A stretch of 64,000 bases of DNA, taken from the NCBI RefSeq assembly GCF_015291665.1, contig NZ_CP030048.1, positions 4,278,001-4,342,000 of the forward strand, given 5' to 3'. Each line of letters begins with the position of its first letter. Positions within the stretch are counted from its first letter, which is position 1. The position numbers and the translations under genes are program-made. Positions 12,641 to 20,314 of this stretch are shown here, in pieces. The notes below the pieces were generated by a model. That model was not told the origin of the DNA, did not search any database, and worked only from the letters and a program-made list of their open reading frames with translations. This DNA comes from Bradyrhizobium sp. CCBAU 53338. Lineage in GTDB: Bacteria; Pseudomonadota; Alphaproteobacteria; Rhizobiales; Xanthobacteraceae.

Positions 12641-13825
12641 CTAGCGCCGGCCACCGCCCATCCCGCCTCCGGGACCTCCAAAGCCGCCACCACCCATTCC
12701 GCCGGGGCCCATCGGCCCGCCACCGGGCCCACCAAAACCACCGGGACCTGACGGGCCGCTTGGTCCTGACGGCGCGGAGCCGGGATTGCCACCGGGGACA
12801 GATCCGGGCGTACCCGGCGCGCTGGGCGGACTGTTGCCCGAGCCCGGCGCGCTGCGCTCCGGATGCATGATCGAGCTGCCCGGCGACCGGCCGGGATTGC
12901 CGCCGCCGGACGGAGGTGCGCCCGTCGCAGGGCCGATCGCCCGCGTCGATTCGACCTGCAAGCCACGCGAGCGATCGAACACGCCGTTGACGACCATGCG
13001 CGCCTCGCCCGCTGCCGGCCCGAAGCGCGAGCTGTCGCGGGCGACGAGCCCCGAGCCGAGTTGGAGGCTGGAGCCGGCGCGCTGCACATAGGCTTCGATC
13101 GACAGCCGGCTCGCGCCGACGAGATCCGAGAAATCCTCGATGCGGGTGCGCATGGCCTGCATCGCGCCCTGGCTCGTGCTGCCCTCGATCAGTACGCGCT
13201 GGCCGACCAGCAGGGGATCGACGCCGGTCAGCTTCAACCCGCCGATATGCAGGCCGTCGGGCCCGCGCTCGACCAGACCGGTGACGCGTTCGGCTGCATC
13301 CCTGCGCGGCTCGACCAGGCTTGCGACGATCACGCCGTCGGTCCGGCGCAAGCCGTAGACAGCCACATGCGTGCCGGCACGGAGCTTGCTGTCCTTGTTG
13401 CTCGCCACGATCTTCTGGCCGAGGACCGTCAGCTCGTTGCCCTTCACCTGCTCGATCGGCCCCGAAACCTCGCTCGCGATCGCGATGTTTCGCGTGACGA
13501 GCGTGCCGTCGGCCTGCCGCGTCGCGACCACGCGCGCGAGCTGGCCGATGCGCAGCGCCTTCGGGCTCGCCGCCTCGCCGTCGATGCGGACCGGCACGTC
13601 GCTCGCATAGGTGACGCGCTCGCCATTGACGTAGATGCTGCCGAAACGCTGGATCACGCCGACGATGCCGGTGCCGCCGATGCCGTGATCGTCACCGCGC
13701 GTGATTCCGGTCCCGCCGATACCTTGATCCGTGCCGCGCCTGACCTGCGCGCGCGCAATCGCGGTGCCGGCGAGCCAGAACCCGGTCAGCAGCAGACGGC
13801 GCGAAATCAGCGGCGGCCTGCTCAT
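12641..13825 (-). CDS. DUF5666 domain secreted protein with Gly/Pro-rich tail
   Basis: A 394-residue exported protein. The N-terminus RRLLLTGFWLAGTAIARA resembles a Sec or Tat signal peptide. A repeated GIGGTGI motif follows, then several beta-rich DUF5666 units (QRFGSIYVNGERV; VKGNELTVLGQKIV). The last 90 or so residues are low-complexity Gly, Pro and Ser. Its start overlaps the DUF6502 stop by four bases (ATGA, 13822-13825), so the two are translationally coupled. Function is unknown; the OB-like repeats suggest a wall- or surface-associated role. Confidence 0.85.
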   Translation of the reverse strand: MSRPPLISRRLLLTGFWLAGTAIARAQVRRGTDQGIGGTGITRGDDHGIGGTGIVGVIQRFGSIYVNGERVTYASDVPVRIDGEAASPKALRIGQLARVVATRQADGTLVTRNIAIASEVSGPIEQVKGNELTVLGQKIVASNKDSKLRAGTHVAVYGLRRTDGVIVASLVEPRRDAAERVTGLVERGPDGLHIGGLKLTGVDPLLVGQRVLIEGSTSQGAMQAMRTRIEDFSDLVGASRLSIEAYVQRAGSSLQLGSGLVARDSSRFGPAAGEARMVVNGVFDRSRGLQVESTRAIGPATGAPPSGGGNPGRSPGSSIMHPERSAPGSGNSPPSAPGTPGSVPGGNPGSAPSGPSGPSGPGGFGGPGGGPMGPGGMGGGGFGGPGGGMGGGRR

Positions 13826-14703
13826 GAGGAGCTGCCCTCTTTGCCGGGGTCCTTGGCCTCGCCCACGTCATCGTCATAATCTTCGCTATAGATGTAGATG
13901 CCGAAGTTCCAGCGGGCGTCGCCGCCCTTGTCCTTCGCGAGCGCGCGGTTGGCCTCGCGGTTGGCGGTCTTCAGCGCATCCATCGCCAGCTCGCGCGAAC
14001 GTGCCTCGAGGCGCCTGGCGAGCTTCGGCGAGATGTTGTTGTAATGGACGGCACGTTCGAGGAAGCGCGGCGCCGGCCCCGACACGTTCTCGGCGGCGGC
14101 CGCGATATGGTCGTGCAAATTGCGGCCGAGATAATGCCATTTGCTGTCGTCAGCACCGCTCGGAACGAACGCCGCCTCCACCAGTTCGATCTCGTCGTCC
14201 GCATTGATGGTCACGAGCTTGCGGTCGACCCATTCGTCGAGCACTGCGCGCGGGCGAACGTCCTTGGTGACGGAGCCGACGAGCTGCTCGAATGACGGCG
14301 CATCGCCTTCGGCGGTGCGCGGCAGTGCCAGCGGCTCGCCCCTTGCATCGGTGAACTCGGGCGCCGCGAGCCAGCGCGCGATCACCGCGCTCGTCAGCGA
14401 CAGCGCCGCCGGCGTCTCGTTCACAGGCGCGCCGGCGCCGCGCAGGCGCGCGACCTCCTTGCGGTGGATGCCGGTGAGCAGGCTGACGCGGCTGTCGGTC
14501 TGCTCCTTGCCTTCAAGCGCGAAATCATGCTCGGCGACGTTGACGAAGAGCTCGCGGAGCAATTGCGCCAGTGCCGGAAAGGTCATGCCGCTGCGGATAC
14601 AGAGCCGCACGAGCGGGCGCAGCAGCCGCGCCAGCGGCGCGTGCAGCTTTTTCGCGGCATTCGGCTCTGGAGCCGCCGCTTTGGGCCCGGACTTGGCATT
14701 CAT
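13822..14703 (-). CDS. DUF6502 family protein
   Basis: A 293-residue soluble protein with LLRPLVRLCIRSGMTFPALAQLLRELF near residues 27-53, then SRVSLLTGIHRKEVARLRG, which reads like a winged-helix or HTH segment. It matches the DUF6502 pattern and length. It is the first gene of a two-gene unit with the DUF5666 protein and is divergent from the glycan operon. The DNA between carries inverted repeats, so a regulatory role is a reasonable guess but unproved. Confidence 0.8.
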   Translation of the reverse strand: MNAKSGPKAAAPEPNAAKKLHAPLARLLRPLVRLCIRSGMTFPALAQLLRELFVNVAEHDFALEGKEQTDSRVSLLTGIHRKEVARLRGAGAPVNETPAALSLTSAVIARWLAAPEFTDARGEPLALPRTAEGDAPSFEQLVGSVTKDVRPRAVLDEWVDRKLVTINADDEIELVEAAFVPSGADDSKWHYLGRNLHDHIAAAAENVSGPAPRFLERAVHYNNISPKLARRLEARSRELAMDALKTANREANRALAKDKGGDARWNFGIYIYSEDYDDDVGEAKDPGKEGSSS

Positions 14704-14727: not shown

Positions 14728-14783
14728 GTGGGACACAATCCCACATTTTCCCATTACGCGATTGACGTGGTAAATTTTCCCAC
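14728..14783. promoter_or_regulatory. Repeated GTGGGA/TCCCAC operator-like elements
   Basis: A perfect inverted repeat GTGGGA-N5-TCCCAC occupies 14728-14744. An imperfect copy of the same 17-base shape, GTGG to CCCAC, occupies 14767-14783, and a half-site ATTTTCCCA lies at 14745-14753 between them. They sit in the 125-base gap between the DUF6502 start and the small membrane protein start, within an AT-rich promoter area. The binding protein is unknown; DUF6502 itself is a candidate. Confidence 0.5.
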
Positions 14784-14828
14784 ATATACGAAACGCCACT
14801 GAGGGCGCGACGTAAAGGGACTAAACCC

Positions 14829-14990
14829 ATGGCTGACCGCTTGGTCCGCATTTCCAGTTCACCGCGTGCCGTGCCGGCTCCCGACTGGGGGCGCGGCGCG
14901 ATCGAACCGATGCTGCCGGCCCTGCTGCGCGGCGTGATCTTCTTCTCGGTGCTGGCAGCACCGTTCGTCGCAGCACTGCTCGCGGGCTGA
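14829..14990 (+). CDS. 53-residue single-pass membrane protein, first gene of glycan operon
   Basis: The frame starts MADRLVRISSS, continues through a basic and proline-containing stretch, and ends in one hydrophobic helix (GVIFFSVLAAPFVAALLAG). AAAGGGA at 14814-14820 is a good ribosome binding site 8 bases before the ATG. The TGA is only 7 bases before the glycosyltransferase-permease gene, which lacks a strong site of its own, suggesting translational coupling. I recognise no family. It may help assemble the export complex. Confidence 0.65.
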   Translation: MADRLVRISSSPRAVPAPDWGRGAIEPMLPALLRGVIFFSVLAAPFVAALLAG

Positions 14991-14997
14991 CGCCATC

Positions 14998-16926
14998 ATG
15001 CAAAACACCAGCGAACTCCCGCGCCGTCCGTCGGTGCTGCACATCTTCAAGATCTACTATCCCGACCTGTTCGGCGGCACGCTGACGGTGATCCGGGACA
15101 TCTGCGCCAGCCTGCAGGACGCCTTCGCCTCCGCCGTGCTGGTCTGCTCGCAGTCGGCCGAGAAGCGCCAGATCGTCGTCAACGACGTGCCGGTCGAGCG
15201 CGTCCGTTCGTTCGGCAACGTGCTGTCGCTGCCGGCCGCGCCCACCTATCCCTGGCGGCTGTGGCAGAAGATAGCCGAGCACGATCTGCTGGCTCTGCAT
15301 GCGCCCTTCCCGCTCGCCGATCTCGTCTTTGCCTTCGGCTTCGGCCGCAAGCGGCCGCTGGTCGTGCACTGGCACGCCGACATCGTCACCCATGCGGGCC
15401 TGCGCTGGTTGATCCAGCCCCTGATGCGGCGGACGCTGCGCCTGGCCAAGGCGATCATCGTGTCCGACCGGGTGCTGGTGGACGAGACGCCCTTGCTGCG
15501 GGAATTCGCTGACAAATGCCAAGTCGTGCCGTTCGGCATCGACACCGATGTCTACGACTGGCCGAAGATCGAGCCACACCACGTCAACGACCGCGGCCGC
15601 CTCGTGCTCGCCTGCGGTCGGCTCGTGCCCTACAAGGGGTTCGACGTGCTGATCCGCGCGGCCGTCAACCGCAACTTCGAGGTCTGGATCATCGGCGAAG
15701 GCGCCGAGCGCGCCAGGCTCGAGCAACTGATCAGCGAGCTTGGCCTCGGTGATCGCGTCCGCCTGCTCGGCTCCGTCAATGATTGCGAGCGCATCAAGCT
15801 GATGTGCCTCGCCGACGTCTTCGTGATGCCATCGGTCACCAACGCCGAGACCTTCGGCCTCGTCCAGCTGGAAGCCATGGCCGCCGGCCGTCCCGTGGTG
15901 AACACCGCGCTCGACACGGCGGTGCCGCGCGTCGCCCGTCACGGCATGGAAGCGATCACCGTGCCGCCCGGCGACGCCGAAGCGCTCGGCGAGGCCATCG
16001 ACACCCTGATCAGCGATCCCGAGCGGCGGCGCCGCATGGGGCTTTCAGCCCGGACCCGCGCCGTGAGCCGGTATTCCGCCGCAGCCTTCAAGGACGGCAT
16101 GGAATCCGTCTACCGCGCCGCCGTCGCGGCTCCATGCGACAGGCCCGTGCCGGCGGACGATCATGAGAAGCAGAAAGGCTGGTTCGACAGCATCCGGATC
16201 GCCGCGGCGCTGGCCTGGTCCGACATGCGTCATCGCTACGTGCGCTCGCTGCTGGGTCCATTCTGGATGTCGCTCCAGATGGCGATCGTGGTTGCAGTGC
16301 TCGGTTCGGTGATCGGACAGATGTCGAATGCCGACATGCTGGCACGCCTGCCCATGCTGGCCCTCTCGATGACCGCATGGACCTTCCTCAACAGCGTCGT
16401 GCTAGATGCTACCACCGCGCTGCAGAACTCTGCGAGCCTGATCCGCGACCGTGCCCTGCCGCCGGTGATCTTTCTGCTCCAATGCACGTTCCGCCAGGGG
16501 CTGTTCGCCCTGCACAATGCCTGCGTCCCGCTCGCGCTCTGGCTGCTGCTCACGCCGCATCATCTCTCCGGTGGGCTCGCGGCGCTGCCCGGCCTGTCGC
16601 TGTTCGTGATCTGCACCTTCGCCCTCAGCCTCGTCCTCGGCGCACTGGCGACGCGTTATCGCGACCTCAAGCCGATCATCGAATCCACGCTGATGCTCGC
16701 CTTCCTCGCCTCGCCCGTGATCTGGTCTTCGGACATCATCAATCACCGCTCGACCGTAATGCGGCTCAATCCGCTGACGCATCTGTTCGCGGTGTGGCGC
16801 GAGCCGCTCGTCGGCGGCCATGTCGATGCGACCAGCATCATCTATGTCCTGGTGACGCTGGCGCTGCTGCTCTGTGCGAGCGTGCTGACACTGGTGCATT
16901 TGCGCAAAGCCGCCTTCTGGATCTGA
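14998..16926 (+). CDS. Fusion of GT4 glycosyltransferase and ABC-2 polysaccharide-export permease
   Basis: One uninterrupted 642-residue frame. Residues 1 to about 380 form a GT-B fold: an N-terminal LFGGTLTVIRDI loop, GRLVPYKGFDVLIRA, and an ExxxxxxxE pair at E284-E292, the retaining GT4 signature. Residues about 395-642 form a Wzm/KpsM-type permease with RYVRSLLGPFW from R413, six hydrophobic segments and a final NPLTHLFAVWREPL block. These activities are normally separate proteins. The ATPase follows three bases later. The fusion should sit in the inner membrane with the transferase on the cytoplasmic side, adding a sugar at the export gate. The glycan is unknown. Confidence 0.9.
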   Translation: MQNTSELPRRPSVLHIFKIYYPDLFGGTLTVIRDICASLQDAFASAVLVCSQSAEKRQIVVNDVPVERVRSFGNVLSLPAAPTYPWRLWQKIAEHDLLALHAPFPLADLVFAFGFGRKRPLVVHWHADIVTHAGLRWLIQPLMRRTLRLAKAIIVSDRVLVDETPLLREFADKCQVVPFGIDTDVYDWPKIEPHHVNDRGRLVLACGRLVPYKGFDVLIRAAVNRNFEVWIIGEGAERARLEQLISELGLGDRVRLLGSVNDCERIKLMCLADVFVMPSVTNAETFGLVQLEAMAAGRPVVNTALDTAVPRVARHGMEAITVPPGDAEALGEAIDTLISDPERRRRMGLSARTRAVSRYSAAAFKDGMESVYRAAVAAPCDRPVPADDHEKQKGWFDSIRIAAALAWSDMRHRYVRSLLGPFWMSLQMAIVVAVLGSVIGQMSNADMLARLPMLALSMTAWTFLNSVVLDATTALQNSASLIRDRALPPVIFLLQCTFRQGLFALHNACVPLALWLLLTPHHLSGGLAALPGLSLFVICTFALSLVLGALATRYRDLKPIIESTLMLAFLASPVIWSSDIINHRSTVMRLNPLTHLFAVWREPLVGGHVDATSIIYVLVTLALLLCASVLTLVHLRKAAFWI

Positions 16927-16929
16927 CCG

Positions 16930-17670
16930 ATGGCCGAGATCAGCTTGCGCAATGTCTGCCTCGACTATCCCCTCTACGGCGCCTACGACTTTTCACTCAA
17001 GCGGAGGCTGCTCGGCCATCTCATCCGCGAAAAGGGTGAGATGCGGATCATCCGCGCCGTCGACGACATCACCTTCGAGGCCGAGGCCGGGGCGCGTATC
17101 GGGCTTGCAGGCCCCAACGGATCCGGCAAGTCGACGCTGCTGCGGTTGATCGCAGGCGTCTATCCGCCGAGCAGCGGCCGCGTGGCGATCCGCGGAAATG
17201 TCGTGCCCCTGCTCGGCCTCAATGCCGGAGTGAACCTCGACTTCATCGCCGAGGACAACATTGCCCTCTTGCTGCGGATCAGCGGCCGCAAGCCGACGCG
17301 CGCCGTGATCGACGAGATCTGGGCCTTTACCGAACTCGAGGAGCGCATGCAGCGGCTGCCGCTGCGGATGTTCTCCTCGGGCATGCTGATGCGCGTGCTG
17401 TTCGCGACCGCGACCGCCTTTCCGGCCGACATCCTCCTGCTCGACGAATGGCTGAGCGTGGTCGACGAGCATTTTGCCGAGAAGGCCGAGGGGCGCCTGC
17501 AGAACCTGGTCTCGCAGGCCGCCATCGTGATCATCGCCTCGCACGACCTGCCGCTGCTGCGCCGCACCTGCACCAGCATCATCAATCTGGATCACGGCCG
17601 CATCGCCTCGACCGTCACGGTCGAGCAACCGTCGGCTCCTCCTTTCGAGCTCCGCGAGATCAGCGCATGA
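16930..17670 (+). CDS. ABC transporter ATPase for polysaccharide export (KpsT/Wzt/TagH type)
   Basis: A 246-residue nucleotide-binding protein. Walker A is GPNGSGKST (residues 61-69); the signature loop reads MFSSGMLMR; Walker B is LLLDEWLSVVDEHF, the form typical of polysaccharide and teichoic-acid exporters. It lacks the extra C-terminal glycan-binding domain of E. coli O9a Wzt, so it is closer to KpsT. It should pair with the permease half of the preceding fusion. The stop overlaps the next gene's ATG (ATGA, 17667-17670). Confidence 0.93.
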   Translation: MAEISLRNVCLDYPLYGAYDFSLKRRLLGHLIREKGEMRIIRAVDDITFEAEAGARIGLAGPNGSGKSTLLRLIAGVYPPSSGRVAIRGNVVPLLGLNAGVNLDFIAEDNIALLLRISGRKPTRAVIDEIWAFTELEERMQRLPLRMFSSGMLMRVLFATATAFPADILLLDEWLSVVDEHFAEKAEGRLQNLVSQAAIVIIASHDLPLLRRTCTSIINLDHGRIASTVTVEQPSAPPFELREISA

Positions 17671-19046
17671 AGCAGAGTATCCTCGTCGTGTCCGAGTCGC
17701 TCGGACAACCCAACCACAAGCGCGGCATCTTCCACTTCACCCGGGAATTGACGCGCTCGCTCGCCTCTGAGGGCCACGAACTCACATTGCTGGTGGAGAC
17801 CTCGAAGCGTTACCGCAAGCTGTGCCGGCGCGAGCGCCGCACGAAGCTGTTTCCGGCGCAGTCGCGCAACATCGAGCTGCTCGCGCTCTATCGCTTTCTG
17901 GACGAAGTCAACGTGAGCGGACCGGTGACGCTCAGCGGCACGCGGCGCAAGTTCGACTGGCTGCGCCACAGGGTCGGCATGTTGTTGTCGCGCGACAATT
18001 TTCTCTGCCTCCTCGGCGCGATCGGCCTGCGTAGCCTGCACGCGCGGCTGATCGAGAACAGGACCGCCGCGCTCGAATACATTCCGCCGGATCTGAGCCA
18101 TCTCGAACTGTTTCGCGACTTTCAGCTCGAGCCCGGATTTTTCAACTATCAGGACTCCTCGGCCTTCTTCCTGCTGCCGCCGCCACGGATCGACGCGCGC
18201 GACTACGACGTCATCGTCGTGGATACACCGACACGGGTGGCGATCAAGCGCAGGCCGGACACCAAGGTCATCTGCGTGATCCACGATTTGTTGCCGCTCA
18301 CCGACCTCAAGCTCAGCGACATCGCTACGCGGCAGTTCCTGGCGCGAATCCGTACCAGCCTGCGTCAGGCCGACGAACTCGCCTTCGTTTCAAACTACAG
18401 CATGATGCGGTTCAGGGAACTGTTGCCGCAATTTGCTCACCTACCGGCGCGGGTCGTGTATCCCCGCACCCGGTTCGACGCTCCGGATGTCCTGCACCTC
18501 CCAGCCCCGTCGGGGCGTCCGGGGCGGCCGAACTTCGTCATCATCGTGTCGAACGAGCCGCGCAAGAACGTCGCCACGGTCCTTCGCGCCTTTCGCAACA
18601 TCCCGCAGGCCGATCTCGTGGTGATCGGCTACGCCGGCCAGATCAGCCGGATGAGCAATCTTCCGAAGAATGTCCGTTTCGCCGGTTATGTCGACGAGCA
18701 GGAGAAGGCCGCGCTGATCGCGGAGGCACACGGGCTGATCATGCCTAGCCTGGCCGAGGGTTTCGGCATCCCGATCATCGAGGCGCTCGCCGCCAATACG
18801 CCGGTGCTGTGCTCCGACATCACCGTGTTTCGTGAGGTCGCGGGCGAACTGGCCGATTATTTCGATCCGTTCTCACCTGAGTCGATCGTCGCCTCCGTCA
18901 CCAGGGTGCTGGCGCGACAGGAGGAAGCTCGCAGCAAGATCCGGGCGCGCCGCTCCGAGCTTGCGGAGCGCTTCGGCTACCAGACCCAGGCCCGCGACTT
19001 CATGGGGCATTATCTGCCGCCGGAACGACTGGTCGCGGCGCAGTAG
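17667..19046 (+). CDS. Glycosyltransferase family 4 protein
   Basis: A 459-residue cytosolic transferase. The N-terminal half begins VVSESLGQPNHKRGIFHFTREL, and the C-terminal donor domain has VSNEPRKNVATVLRAFRNI and the PSLAEGFGIPIIEALA motif with the paired glutamates of GT4. The frame is open upstream to 17448, but the four-base overlap with the ATPase stop marks 17667 as the start. It likely adds sugars to the exported glycan. Donor and acceptor are unknown. Confidence 0.92.
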   Translation: MKQSILVVSESLGQPNHKRGIFHFTRELTRSLASEGHELTLLVETSKRYRKLCRRERRTKLFPAQSRNIELLALYRFLDEVNVSGPVTLSGTRRKFDWLRHRVGMLLSRDNFLCLLGAIGLRSLHARLIENRTAALEYIPPDLSHLELFRDFQLEPGFFNYQDSSAFFLLPPPRIDARDYDVIVVDTPTRVAIKRRPDTKVICVIHDLLPLTDLKLSDIATRQFLARIRTSLRQADELAFVSNYSMMRFRELLPQFAHLPARVVYPRTRFDAPDVLHLPAPSGRPGRPNFVIIVSNEPRKNVATVLRAFRNIPQADLVVIGYAGQISRMSNLPKNVRFAGYVDEQEKAALIAEAHGLIMPSLAEGFGIPIIEALAANTPVLCSDITVFREVAGELADYFDPFSPESIVASVTRVLARQEEARSKIRARRSELAERFGYQTQARDFMGHYLPPERLVAAQ

Positions 19047-19051
19047 GCTCG

Positions 19052-20314
19052 GTGAGCATGACAGCCGACACCGCGGCGTGCGCGGGAGCCGTCACCGCAC
19101 CGGCCCGGCAACGCTCGGCGGCACTGTTCAAGGCCGCCGACGTGCTCGCCATGTCGATCGCGGCGTCACTACCATGGTCAACCACCGCGCCCTCGATCTT
19201 CGTTGGCCTCTGGCTGCTCGCGGTGACGCCGACCATCGACTGGCGGGACTATGCGCGCCGCCTCGTGCAGCCTGCTTACGCCCTGCCCTTCGTCATCCTG
19301 CTGCTCGCGCTTCTGGGTGTCCTGTGGTCCGATGGGGTCTGGGTCGACCGGCTGCACGCGGTCAAGCCGGTCGCCAAGCTCGTGCTGATTCCGCCGCTGC
19401 TCTATCATTTCAGCCGGTCGGAGCGCGGCTTCCATGTTTGCGCGGCCTTTCTCGTCTCCTGCGCGCTGCTGGCGGTGTACGCCTGGATCGTGCTGCTCGA
19501 TCCCGCCCTGAAGCTGACCGCAACCGCGTCATCGGGTGTTCCCGTCAAGAACTACATCGACCAGAGCCAGGAGTTCACGCTGTGCGTCTTCGCGCTCGCT
19601 CTGCCGGCGCTGTGGTTCTGGCGCGGCGGCAGCCTGATCGCCACGGCCGCATGCCTCGCGCTGATCGCTCTGTTCGTGACCAACATGGTCTTCGTCGCCT
19701 CCGCCCGCACCGCGCTGCTCTGCATTGCAGTGCTGCTGTTGCTGTTTGCGTGGCGGCACCTGAGCCGGCGCGCAGCCCTGCTGCTGTTCGCGAGTGCGGC
19801 GGCCGCGAGCGCTCTGGCCTGGACGGCGTCACCCTATCTGCGCCATCGCGTCACCGACATCGCCGTGGAATATCAGCACGGACGCGAGGACATCAGCCGC
19901 GCCTCGACTGCGCAGCGCCTGACCTATTGGCGCAAGGCAGCCACAGCCTTTGCCGAAGCACCGTTATTCGGCCACGGCACGGGATCGATCAAGCGCCAGT
20001 TCGAGCGCGCAGCTTCGGGCGAAACCAGCCTCGACGCCGAGATCGTGAGCAATCCCCATAACCAGACCCTGCATGTCGCGGTGCAATGGGGGCTATTGGG
20101 CGTCATTCTCCTCTATGCCATGTGGTTGGCACACCTTCGCCTGTTCACCGGCAACAGTCTTGCCGCCTGGATCGGCCTCGTCGTCGTCGTGCAAAACATC
20201 ACGAGTTCGCTCGTGAATTCGCATCTCACTGATTTCCACGAGGGCTGGATCTACGTGCTCGGCGTCGGTGTCGCCGGCGGCATGATTCTGAGAACCAACG
20301 CCGGCCAGCGCTGA
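19052..20314 (+). CDS. O-antigen ligase/polymerase family (WaaL/Wzy-like) protein
   Basis: A 420-residue polytopic protein with about 10-12 hydrophobic segments and one large periplasmic loop (residues about 255-335). That loop carries an AEAPLFGHGTGS block and NPHNQTLHVAVQWG, the His-Asn motif of the Wzy_C family. Start is GTG 19052 or ATG 19058. Ligases transfer an undecaprenyl-linked glycan to an acceptor, and polymerases join repeat units. Finding one beside an ABC exporter points to ligation of an exported glycan. The stop abuts the convergent binding-protein stop. Confidence 0.88.
   Translation: MSMTADTAACAGAVTAPARQRSAALFKAADVLAMSIAASLPWSTTAPSIFVGLWLLAVTPTIDWRDYARRLVQPAYALPFVILLLALLGVLWSDGVWVDRLHAVKPVAKLVLIPPLLYHFSRSERGFHVCAAFLVSCALLAVYAWIVLLDPALKLTATASSGVPVKNYIDQSQEFTLCVFALALPALWFWRGGSLIATAACLALIALFVTNMVFVASARTALLCIAVLLLLFAWRHLSRRAALLLFASAAAASALAWTASPYLRHRVTDIAVEYQHGREDISRASTAQRLTYWRKAATAFAEAPLFGHGTGSIKRQFERAASGETSLDAEIVSNPHNQTLHVAVQWGLLGVILLYAMWLAHLRLFTGNSLAAWIGLVVVVQNITSSLVNSHLTDFHEGWIYVLGVGVAGGMILRTNAGQR

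Follow-up and report, generated by a model that had tools for sequence, protein, structure and literature searches.

A conserved Bradyrhizobium operon with a GT4 glycosyltransferase fused to its Wzm-type permease, a predicted surface-glycan exporter

In Klebsiella O1/O2 (D-galactan), a Wzm-type permease operates with a Wzt ATPase that has no carbohydrate-binding module (CBM), and glycosyltransferase (GT) genes lie alongside those of the transporter. The sections of the report on which we draw (PMC11231755) name WbbM, WbbN, WbbO and the transporter as separate proteins, and describe O2a extension as coupled to export, with chain length set by the transporter-to-enzyme ratio. In the structural account of Wzm-Wzt, as excerpted here (PMC6379404), the N-terminus of Wzm forms an interface helix that lies between the membrane domain and the nucleotide-binding (ATPase) domain, and the pore begins at the cytosolic interface, close to the gate helix of Wzt. 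In Bradyrhizobium, mutation of waaL/rfaL in B. japonicum 61A101C and in photosynthetic strains abolishes the O-antigen, according to the passages cited (PMC4581169, PMC4743980). Here we analyze a compact five-gene operon in the chromosome of Bradyrhizobium sp. CCBAU 53338, from a group found in soil and in root nodules, in which a family 4 glycosyltransferase (GT4) is fused to the N-terminus of a Wzm-type ABC-2 permease of an ATP-binding cassette (ABC) exporter. The whole stretch of DNA analyzed, 64,000 nucleotides of contig NZ_CP030048.1 (G000 C1:4278001-4342000), is called the window, and positions are window coordinates. Close named relatives of the window, by protein and locus matches, include B. 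manausense.

We slightly favor, on the strength of sequence comparisons, the reading that this operon is a regulated, auxiliary surface-glycan pathway built on a CBM-less Wzm-Wzt exporter. In this pathway a transferase at the channel mouth would couple elongation to export, and a dedicated ligase would transfer the product to the lipopolysaccharide (LPS) core. The original prediction described five packed forward-strand genes, separated by 7, 3, -4 and 5 bases, for a 53-residue membrane peptide, the fusion, an ABC ATPase, a second GT4 and a WaaL/Wzy-like protein. Open reading frame (ORF) coordinates agree with every gap, and Pfam matches and hydropathy agree with the gene contents. The unit seems to extend further upstream, taking in the divergent DUF6502 and DUF5666 genes. 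The features are as follows.

14829-14990, + strand: tail-anchored membrane peptide, 53 residues (one hydrophobic helix by hydropathy, C-terminal, residues 35-53)
14998-16926, + strand: GT4-Wzm fusion, 642 residues (Pfam, motif, substitution ratios and open frames)
16930-17670, + strand: Wzt-type ATPase, 246 residues, without a C-terminal CBM (PF00005, solved-chain matches, motifs)
17667-19046, + strand: GT4b, the second GT4 glycosyltransferase, 459 residues (PF00534, EX7E motif)
19052-20314, + strand: WaaL-family O-antigen ligase paralogue (PF04932, invariant residues, identity to genomic copies)
14762-14790, + strand: promoter-like TTGACG-17 bases-TATACG before the operon (by-eye sigma-70 type match, mostly invariant columns)
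14728-14744, no strand: palindrome GTGGGACACAATCCCAC, putative operator (conserved in the divergent promoter region, unique in the genome)
13822-14703, - strand: divergent DUF6502 protein gene, candidate regulator (PF20112)
12641-13825, - strand: DUF5666 protein gene, overlapping the 3' end of the DUF6502 gene (PF18914)

The fusion consists of a GT4 half (residues 1-377), a linker (about 378-402) and an ABC-2 permease half (about 403-642). Matches to PF00534, PF13692 and PF13579 fall within residues 26-353, and PF01061 is matched at 404-599 with 46.2 bits against a cut-off of 26.9, which places the C-terminal half among ABC-2 permeases. Residues 396-641 align to the solved Wzm chain 9qfx (its residues 56-306 of 307, E 9e-34). 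The EX7E motif of the GT half lies at residues 284-292 and that of GT4b, which matches PF00534, at 364-372; domains and motifs together assign both to GT4. Relative to the window, the median ratio of nonsynonymous to synonymous substitution rates (dN/dS) of the fusion is 0.17 (18 comparisons). By part, the GT half has a median of 0.156, the permease half one of 0.096 and the linker one of 0.612, so that two constrained domains appear to sit on a free tether: both halves are under purifying selection, and the linker evolves fast. The original prediction would have fallen if the fusion were a frame error unique to this assembly. Homologues occur across the genus and in one further genus, and the fused frames in many genomes, with constraint on both halves, rule out such an artefact.

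In a protein search, the best 120 of 1565 matches were 630-649 residues long and at least 83% identical, each with precomputed GT and PF01061 domains. Genus counts come from a single sample of 242 genomes and are not corrected for kinship. In 81 of these, the permease (69-100% identity) lies in an open frame of 642-897 codons with no internal stop; among the matches listed, the remaining permeases (E to 1e-25) show 27-35% identity and occupy frames of 279-427 codons. A direct match over the whole GT half was obtained in 18 of 36 genomes of the own genus and in 16 named loci, some of which are the same genomes as numbered ones (e.g. L028, L010); in the rest of the 81, frame length suggests its presence. 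Named carriers include B. stylosanthis BR 446 and B. nitroreducens TSA1. A family sample (248 genomes, 47 genera) yielded a sole copy outside the genus, in G357 of a sister genus (permease 67%, GT half 68%). No further comparable copy was found in a class sample of 385 genomes, where 14 permease matches reached 28-35%. Three of the class-sample permeases, at 30-32%, sit in long open frames (G831, 595 codons; G644, 455; G863, 518), and no GT match was found upstream of those of G831 and G644 (L057, L056). The named-locus, genus-wide and G357 copies rule out a strain-specific fusion. One record titled Frankia sp. RB7 (L021, JAUEPE010000003.1) carries the operon genes at 74-94% identity to Bradyrhizobium and the neighbours at 87-95%, and is therefore probably misnamed or contaminated.

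Gene order was counted in the 18 fusion loci with long flanks (L020-L035, L041 and L042), short loci being excluded. Both domains share one frame, with the peptide, Wzt and GT4b genes as neighbours, in all 18, as the original prediction had proposed to check. The order peptide-fusion-Wzt-GT4b holds throughout, if the L041 peptide is counted from an ORF reading, and so do the 3-base gap between fusion and ATPase and the 4-base overlap of ATPase and GT4b. Peptide and fusion are 6-8 bases apart in 16 loci and 17 apart in L042; in L041 the fusion has a possible earlier start, which a 68-residue peptide ORF overlaps. The peptide was found by tblastn in 17 of the 18, with counterparts from ORF reading of 68 residues in L041 and 57 in L080. 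It has no Pfam or NCBIfam match and a median dN/dS against the window of 0.33 (17 comparisons, L041 not included). GT4b keeps its position in 18/18 and has a median of 0.19 (18 comparisons).

Both transporter components come nearest to galactan Wzm-Wzt exporters, whose models and 9qfx-series chains we take to be mycobacterial. In NCBIfam the top-scoring models are those of a galactan exporter, NF050109 (Wzm) and NF050108 (Wzt), with scores so far under the curated cut-offs (142.5 against 380 bits and 176.3 against 400 bits, respectively) that we rejected membership in either equivalog. PF00005 is the sole Pfam family above cut-off in the ATPase, residues 3-231 of which align to the closest solved chains, 9qhw and 9qfx (E about 1e-43). 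Its motifs are intact (Walker A GPNGSGKS at 61, FSSG at 148, ILLLDE at 168 and SH at 204), and its median dN/dS against the window is 0.14 (18 comparisons). With 246 residues, and a solved-chain alignment ending at residue 231, this Wzt has no C-terminal CBM. Its N-terminal stretch YPLYGAYDFSLKRRLLGHL was set by eye against the gate-helix description (a Tyr and basic residues) in the excerpt of PMC6379404. The protein is thus an ABC ATPase as predicted, and the accompanying label "KpsT-type" is loose, because the best models are galactan Wzm and Wzt and the nearest solved chains are 9qfx and 9qhw. Pfam searches of the five operon proteins, and of these only, found no KpsC/S/E/D-type member. 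Chain A of 9qfx (galactan exporter, 307 residues) has no GT, whereas the operon permease carries one. The likeness to Klebsiella O1/O2 extends to the Wzm-type permease, the CBM-less Wzt and the adjoining GT genes; the operon differs in that one GT4 is fused to the Wzm N-terminus and a WaaL paralogue lies within it.

The product of the last gene belongs with WaaL by sequence, and its ligation activity is a prediction. PF04932 (Wzy_C) is matched with 70.1 bits against a cut-off of 31.7 at residues 205-354. Its start is a GTG at 19052, with an in-frame ATG at 19058. Residues R219, R289, H336 and D394 are invariant among 12 aligned sequences and presumably correspond to E. coli WaaL residues. The gene is the third WaaL paralogue of its genome; the other two, at 2.604 Mb and 2.512 Mb, share 48% and 45% identity with it, respectively. 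The 2.604-Mb copy adjoins genes resembling hldD and hldE by sequence, and a PF00953 protein is encoded a few genes away, a setting that matches the one given for rfaL in the excerpt of PMC4743980. The B. japonicum protein has Wzy_C at residues 200-354 in the section cited (PMC4581169), and Bradyrhizobium WaaL/RfaL (bll5926, BRADO5200) resembles the operon ligase in the place of this domain and in size, the comparison with bll5926 being by description only. Eleven palindrome-linked ligases form one clade apart from the two other copies of the window genome (support 100/99). The median dN/dS against the window is 0.22 (15 comparisons) in a set with unsure, script-set ligase starts that leaves out L024, where the ligase is present. 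Given the kinship with WaaL, ligation after export, suggested originally from the adjacency of ligase and exporter, is the natural reading. The ligase follows GT4b in 16 of the 18 long-flank loci, and so is a usual but not a fixed part of the unit.

In all 18 long-flank loci DUF6502 adjoins the operon and DUF5666 follows DUF6502. All 17 aligned intergenic regions carry the palindrome unchanged, and a search of the 8.28-Mb genome allowing up to 2 mismatches found this single site (control 0). A TTCCCAC half-site lies downstream, inside the spacer of the promoter-like element, the columns of which are mostly invariant in the 17-sequence alignment. Similar palindromes stand by the DUF6502 gene in 14 of 14 DUF6502-only loci, and also in L041, L042 and L080. 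Among the 242 genus genomes, 95 have DUF6502, namely 81 of the 81 with the fusion and 14 of the 161 others, and 147 have neither (Fisher p 4e-50, uncorrected for kinship). DUF6502, of which we found no mention in the open-access literature, probably controls the divergent promoter through this unique palindrome and is a candidate one-operon regulator; that it binds the palindrome is our guess from position. Additionally, G010 (L041:3310-3995; L075 is the same genome) has a second palindrome upstream of an extra 156-residue ORF between DUF6502 and the peptide gene, and G004 (L076) likewise has two palindromes.

Twelve of the 14 fusionless genomes with DUF6502 still carry something of the operon, as scars or as a transferase or ligase on its own. 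In L078 and L079 what survives is the first part of the fusion and the last part of the ligase, with different joints, and part of the ligase and nothing else of the operon remains in L086, L091, L093 and L095. L038 and L092 keep the transferase alone at the palindrome; L088, L090, L094 and L096 keep a near full-length ligase alone behind the DUF6502 palindrome; L087 and L089 have no remnant. This natural deletion series indicates a dispensable unit, seemingly lost or trimmed several times. The lone transferases branch within the fused clade, and a clade restricted to fused sequences was rejected by the approximately unbiased (AU) test (p 0.020), with branches that are long or unsure. Their synonymous distances to the window (0.88 for L038, 0.99 for L092) are about those of the other fused subclade; combined with the unsure branches, this makes replacement instead of loss a possibility. 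An unfused Wzm is encoded elsewhere in each of the four genomes with a lone ligase.

Among the loci seen, the closest unfused relatives of the GT half are 43% (G329), 38-40% (G025) and 38% (own genome) identical. G329 (L055/L071) has separate genes in the order GT, Wzm, Wzt, with identities of 43%, 29% and 36%, and in G025 (L037) a gap of ~1.3 kb separates GT from Wzm. A 23% GT match in L036 (Trichormus) is in another frame than the permease and was not counted as a relative; the L044 GT, with a stop in its translation, and P0140 were excluded from alignment A2. The tree of Wzm domains has long branches and does not resolve at depth. A gmd-like (GDP-mannose 4,6-dehydratase) gene lies near five of six unfused GT relatives (L037, L040, L043, L045 and L071, not L044), and four of the five products exceed the NCBIfam gmd cut-off, which weakly suggests a GDP-linked donor. 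The L040 gene (L040:7213-8253; C1 of the window genome, ~2.531 Mb) lies directly upstream of the unfused GT paralogue of that genome, and shares ~50% identity with the L071 copy, its match being interrupted by a stop.

The window genome as a whole contains two PF00953 and three PF02397 proteins, besides four gmd-like matches, of which one has an internal stop. One PF00953 protein is near the canonical waaL, and the second may, we guess, be MraY. From the absence of initiation and sugar-nucleotide genes in the operon, the original prediction concluded that the product had either to be small or to depend on genes at other loci. Such dependence fits these counts. With initiation-type and gmd-like genes elsewhere in the genome, nothing follows as to product size, and we set aside the claim that it must be small.

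In an effort to reveal long permease-bearing proteins of other kinds, two chimeric queries were searched and gave 21 and 53 matches. Most have PF01061 alone, some add an ATPase and a few are odd (P0153, NTP_transf_5 with PqqD). Fusions with an N-terminal enzyme and a C-terminal ABC-2 permease, the order seen in the operon, involve GT2 (P0150, P0160, P0182), PF03407 (P0174) and a methyltransferase (P0141); the permease profile is matched only partially in P0182 and P0141. The architecture has thus arisen more than once. These sporadic fusions use other enzyme families, with 1-6 member sequences each and no conserved lineage shown; among the fusions seen here, the GT4 version alone is a conserved lineage. 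Such searches reach only permeases with short words in common with the queries, and the Bradyrhizobium fusions were not among their matches; further fusions may therefore exist. The statement that transferase and permease are separate in known pathways agrees with the Klebsiella O1/O2 proteins as named in the sections cited above, and needs qualifying in view of the GT2-Wzm and PF03407-Wzm fusions. We found no described GT-Wzm fusion in the open-access literature, which excludes most subscription journals.

We propose that a PF00953 or PF02397 enzyme encoded elsewhere would initiate a lipid-linked acceptor, which the two GT4 transferases would extend on the cytoplasmic face. As the GT is joined just before the Wzm interface helix, a (fusion)2-Wzt2 transporter would hold two GT copies beside the channel entrance, at the mouth of the dimer, where sugar addition may take place as originally suggested. 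The fusion would also fix the transferase-to-exporter ratio. We suggest coupling of elongation to export, by analogy with Klebsiella O2a, because Wzt lacks a CBM and no terminator was recognized in the operon. The exported chain would be passed to lipid A-core by the dedicated WaaL paralogue, the DUF6502 protein probably governs the divergent promoter by acting at the palindrome, and the tail-anchored peptide probably serves as an accessory subunit. The cluster may thus decorate the cell surface and is probably switchable. A bolder and rather doubtful extension is that the fusion makes the ABC exporter synthase-like, with polymerization and translocation in one machine of fixed stoichiometry, tuned by a microprotein and switched by DUF6502, and that the other enzyme-Wzm fusions are convergent. 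As we understand the field, how CBM-less Wzm-Wzt exporters take up growing chains is unsettled; a covalent GT-permease link offers a direct test of coupling and a handle to trap a transferase-exporter complex for structure. The natural series of full operon, lone transferase, lone ligase and scars, with a single operator-like site, lends itself to clean genetics, and DUF6502 gains a testable candidate role.

Several observations weigh against a coupled, ligase-terminated pathway. The fusion is not carried by 161 of the 242 genus genomes; no ligase match stands beside it in L022 and L023, otherwise complete carriers, or in G357. The lone transferases of L038 and L092 suggest that the GT may act without the permease, or that these genes are decaying. 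Both exporter scores lie far under the galactan equivalog cut-offs, and the inference of a donor from gmd neighbours is indirect. The fused Wzm as sister of the L071/L037 Wzm was weakly rejected (AU p 0.039, for a group chosen after the first tree), so the join may not have come about by simple read-through between two such neighbouring genes. The fusion could also be a mere convenience, in which GT and permease work independently on a tether without mechanistic role and the locus is an ordinary ABC-dependent O-antigen locus. The fast-evolving linker (dN/dS 0.612), the GT-only copies at the same palindrome, and the same kind of GT unfused beside Wzm-Wzt in L071 would all suit this account. We nonetheless judge it unlikely, though it is the strongest of the alternatives, as 81 of 81 permease carriers in the genus sample have the long fused frame and fusions of the same order arose elsewhere.

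Somewhat less probable is a short lipid-linked sugar or oligosaccharide, flipped and then added by the WaaL-like or another membrane transferase to LPS core or O-antigen as a modification. The five genes include two transferases only and no sugar-nucleotide genes, and genomes in which such a palindrome precedes only a transferase or only a ligase suggest separable small tasks. However, homopolymer pathways can run on two transferases, and the best models and solved chains are polysaccharide and teichoic acid exporters, albeit under the model cut-offs. The PF04932 family covers both O-antigen ligases and protein O-oligosaccharyltransferases, and the sole solved chain matched by the ligase sequence, 9rmk (E 2.6e-7), is named Oligosaccharyltransferase. 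Protein glycosylation is nonetheless quite improbable for this operon, given 48% identity to the waaL copy near hldD/hldE-like genes, 45% to the third copy, and a Wzy_C placement (205-354) close to that in B. japonicum WaaL (200-354; PMC4581169, as excerpted). We give least credence, and very little, to a group 2-like capsule (KpsMT) locus: it would share an ABC-2 permease and an ATPase of the same superfamily, but the five operon proteins include no KpsC/S/E/D-type member (the remainder of the genome was not searched) and have a WaaL-family ligase instead. On balance, then, the regulated surface-glycan pathway with coupled export keeps our modest preference.

Within the 14-17 kb fetched, neither the M23 peptidase nor the LivK neighbour is present in L080, L088, L090, L092, L094 and L096, indicating that the block occupies more than one place. 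Of 34 sequences examined, three carry, after the ligase end or its scar, a copy of the terminal 60-88 bases of the M23 peptidase gene (L025:13326-13413, L026:13324-13411 and L079:9567-9626). This direct repeat of the M23 3' end flanks the DUF5666-DUF6502-operon block, as if the block had been inserted there.

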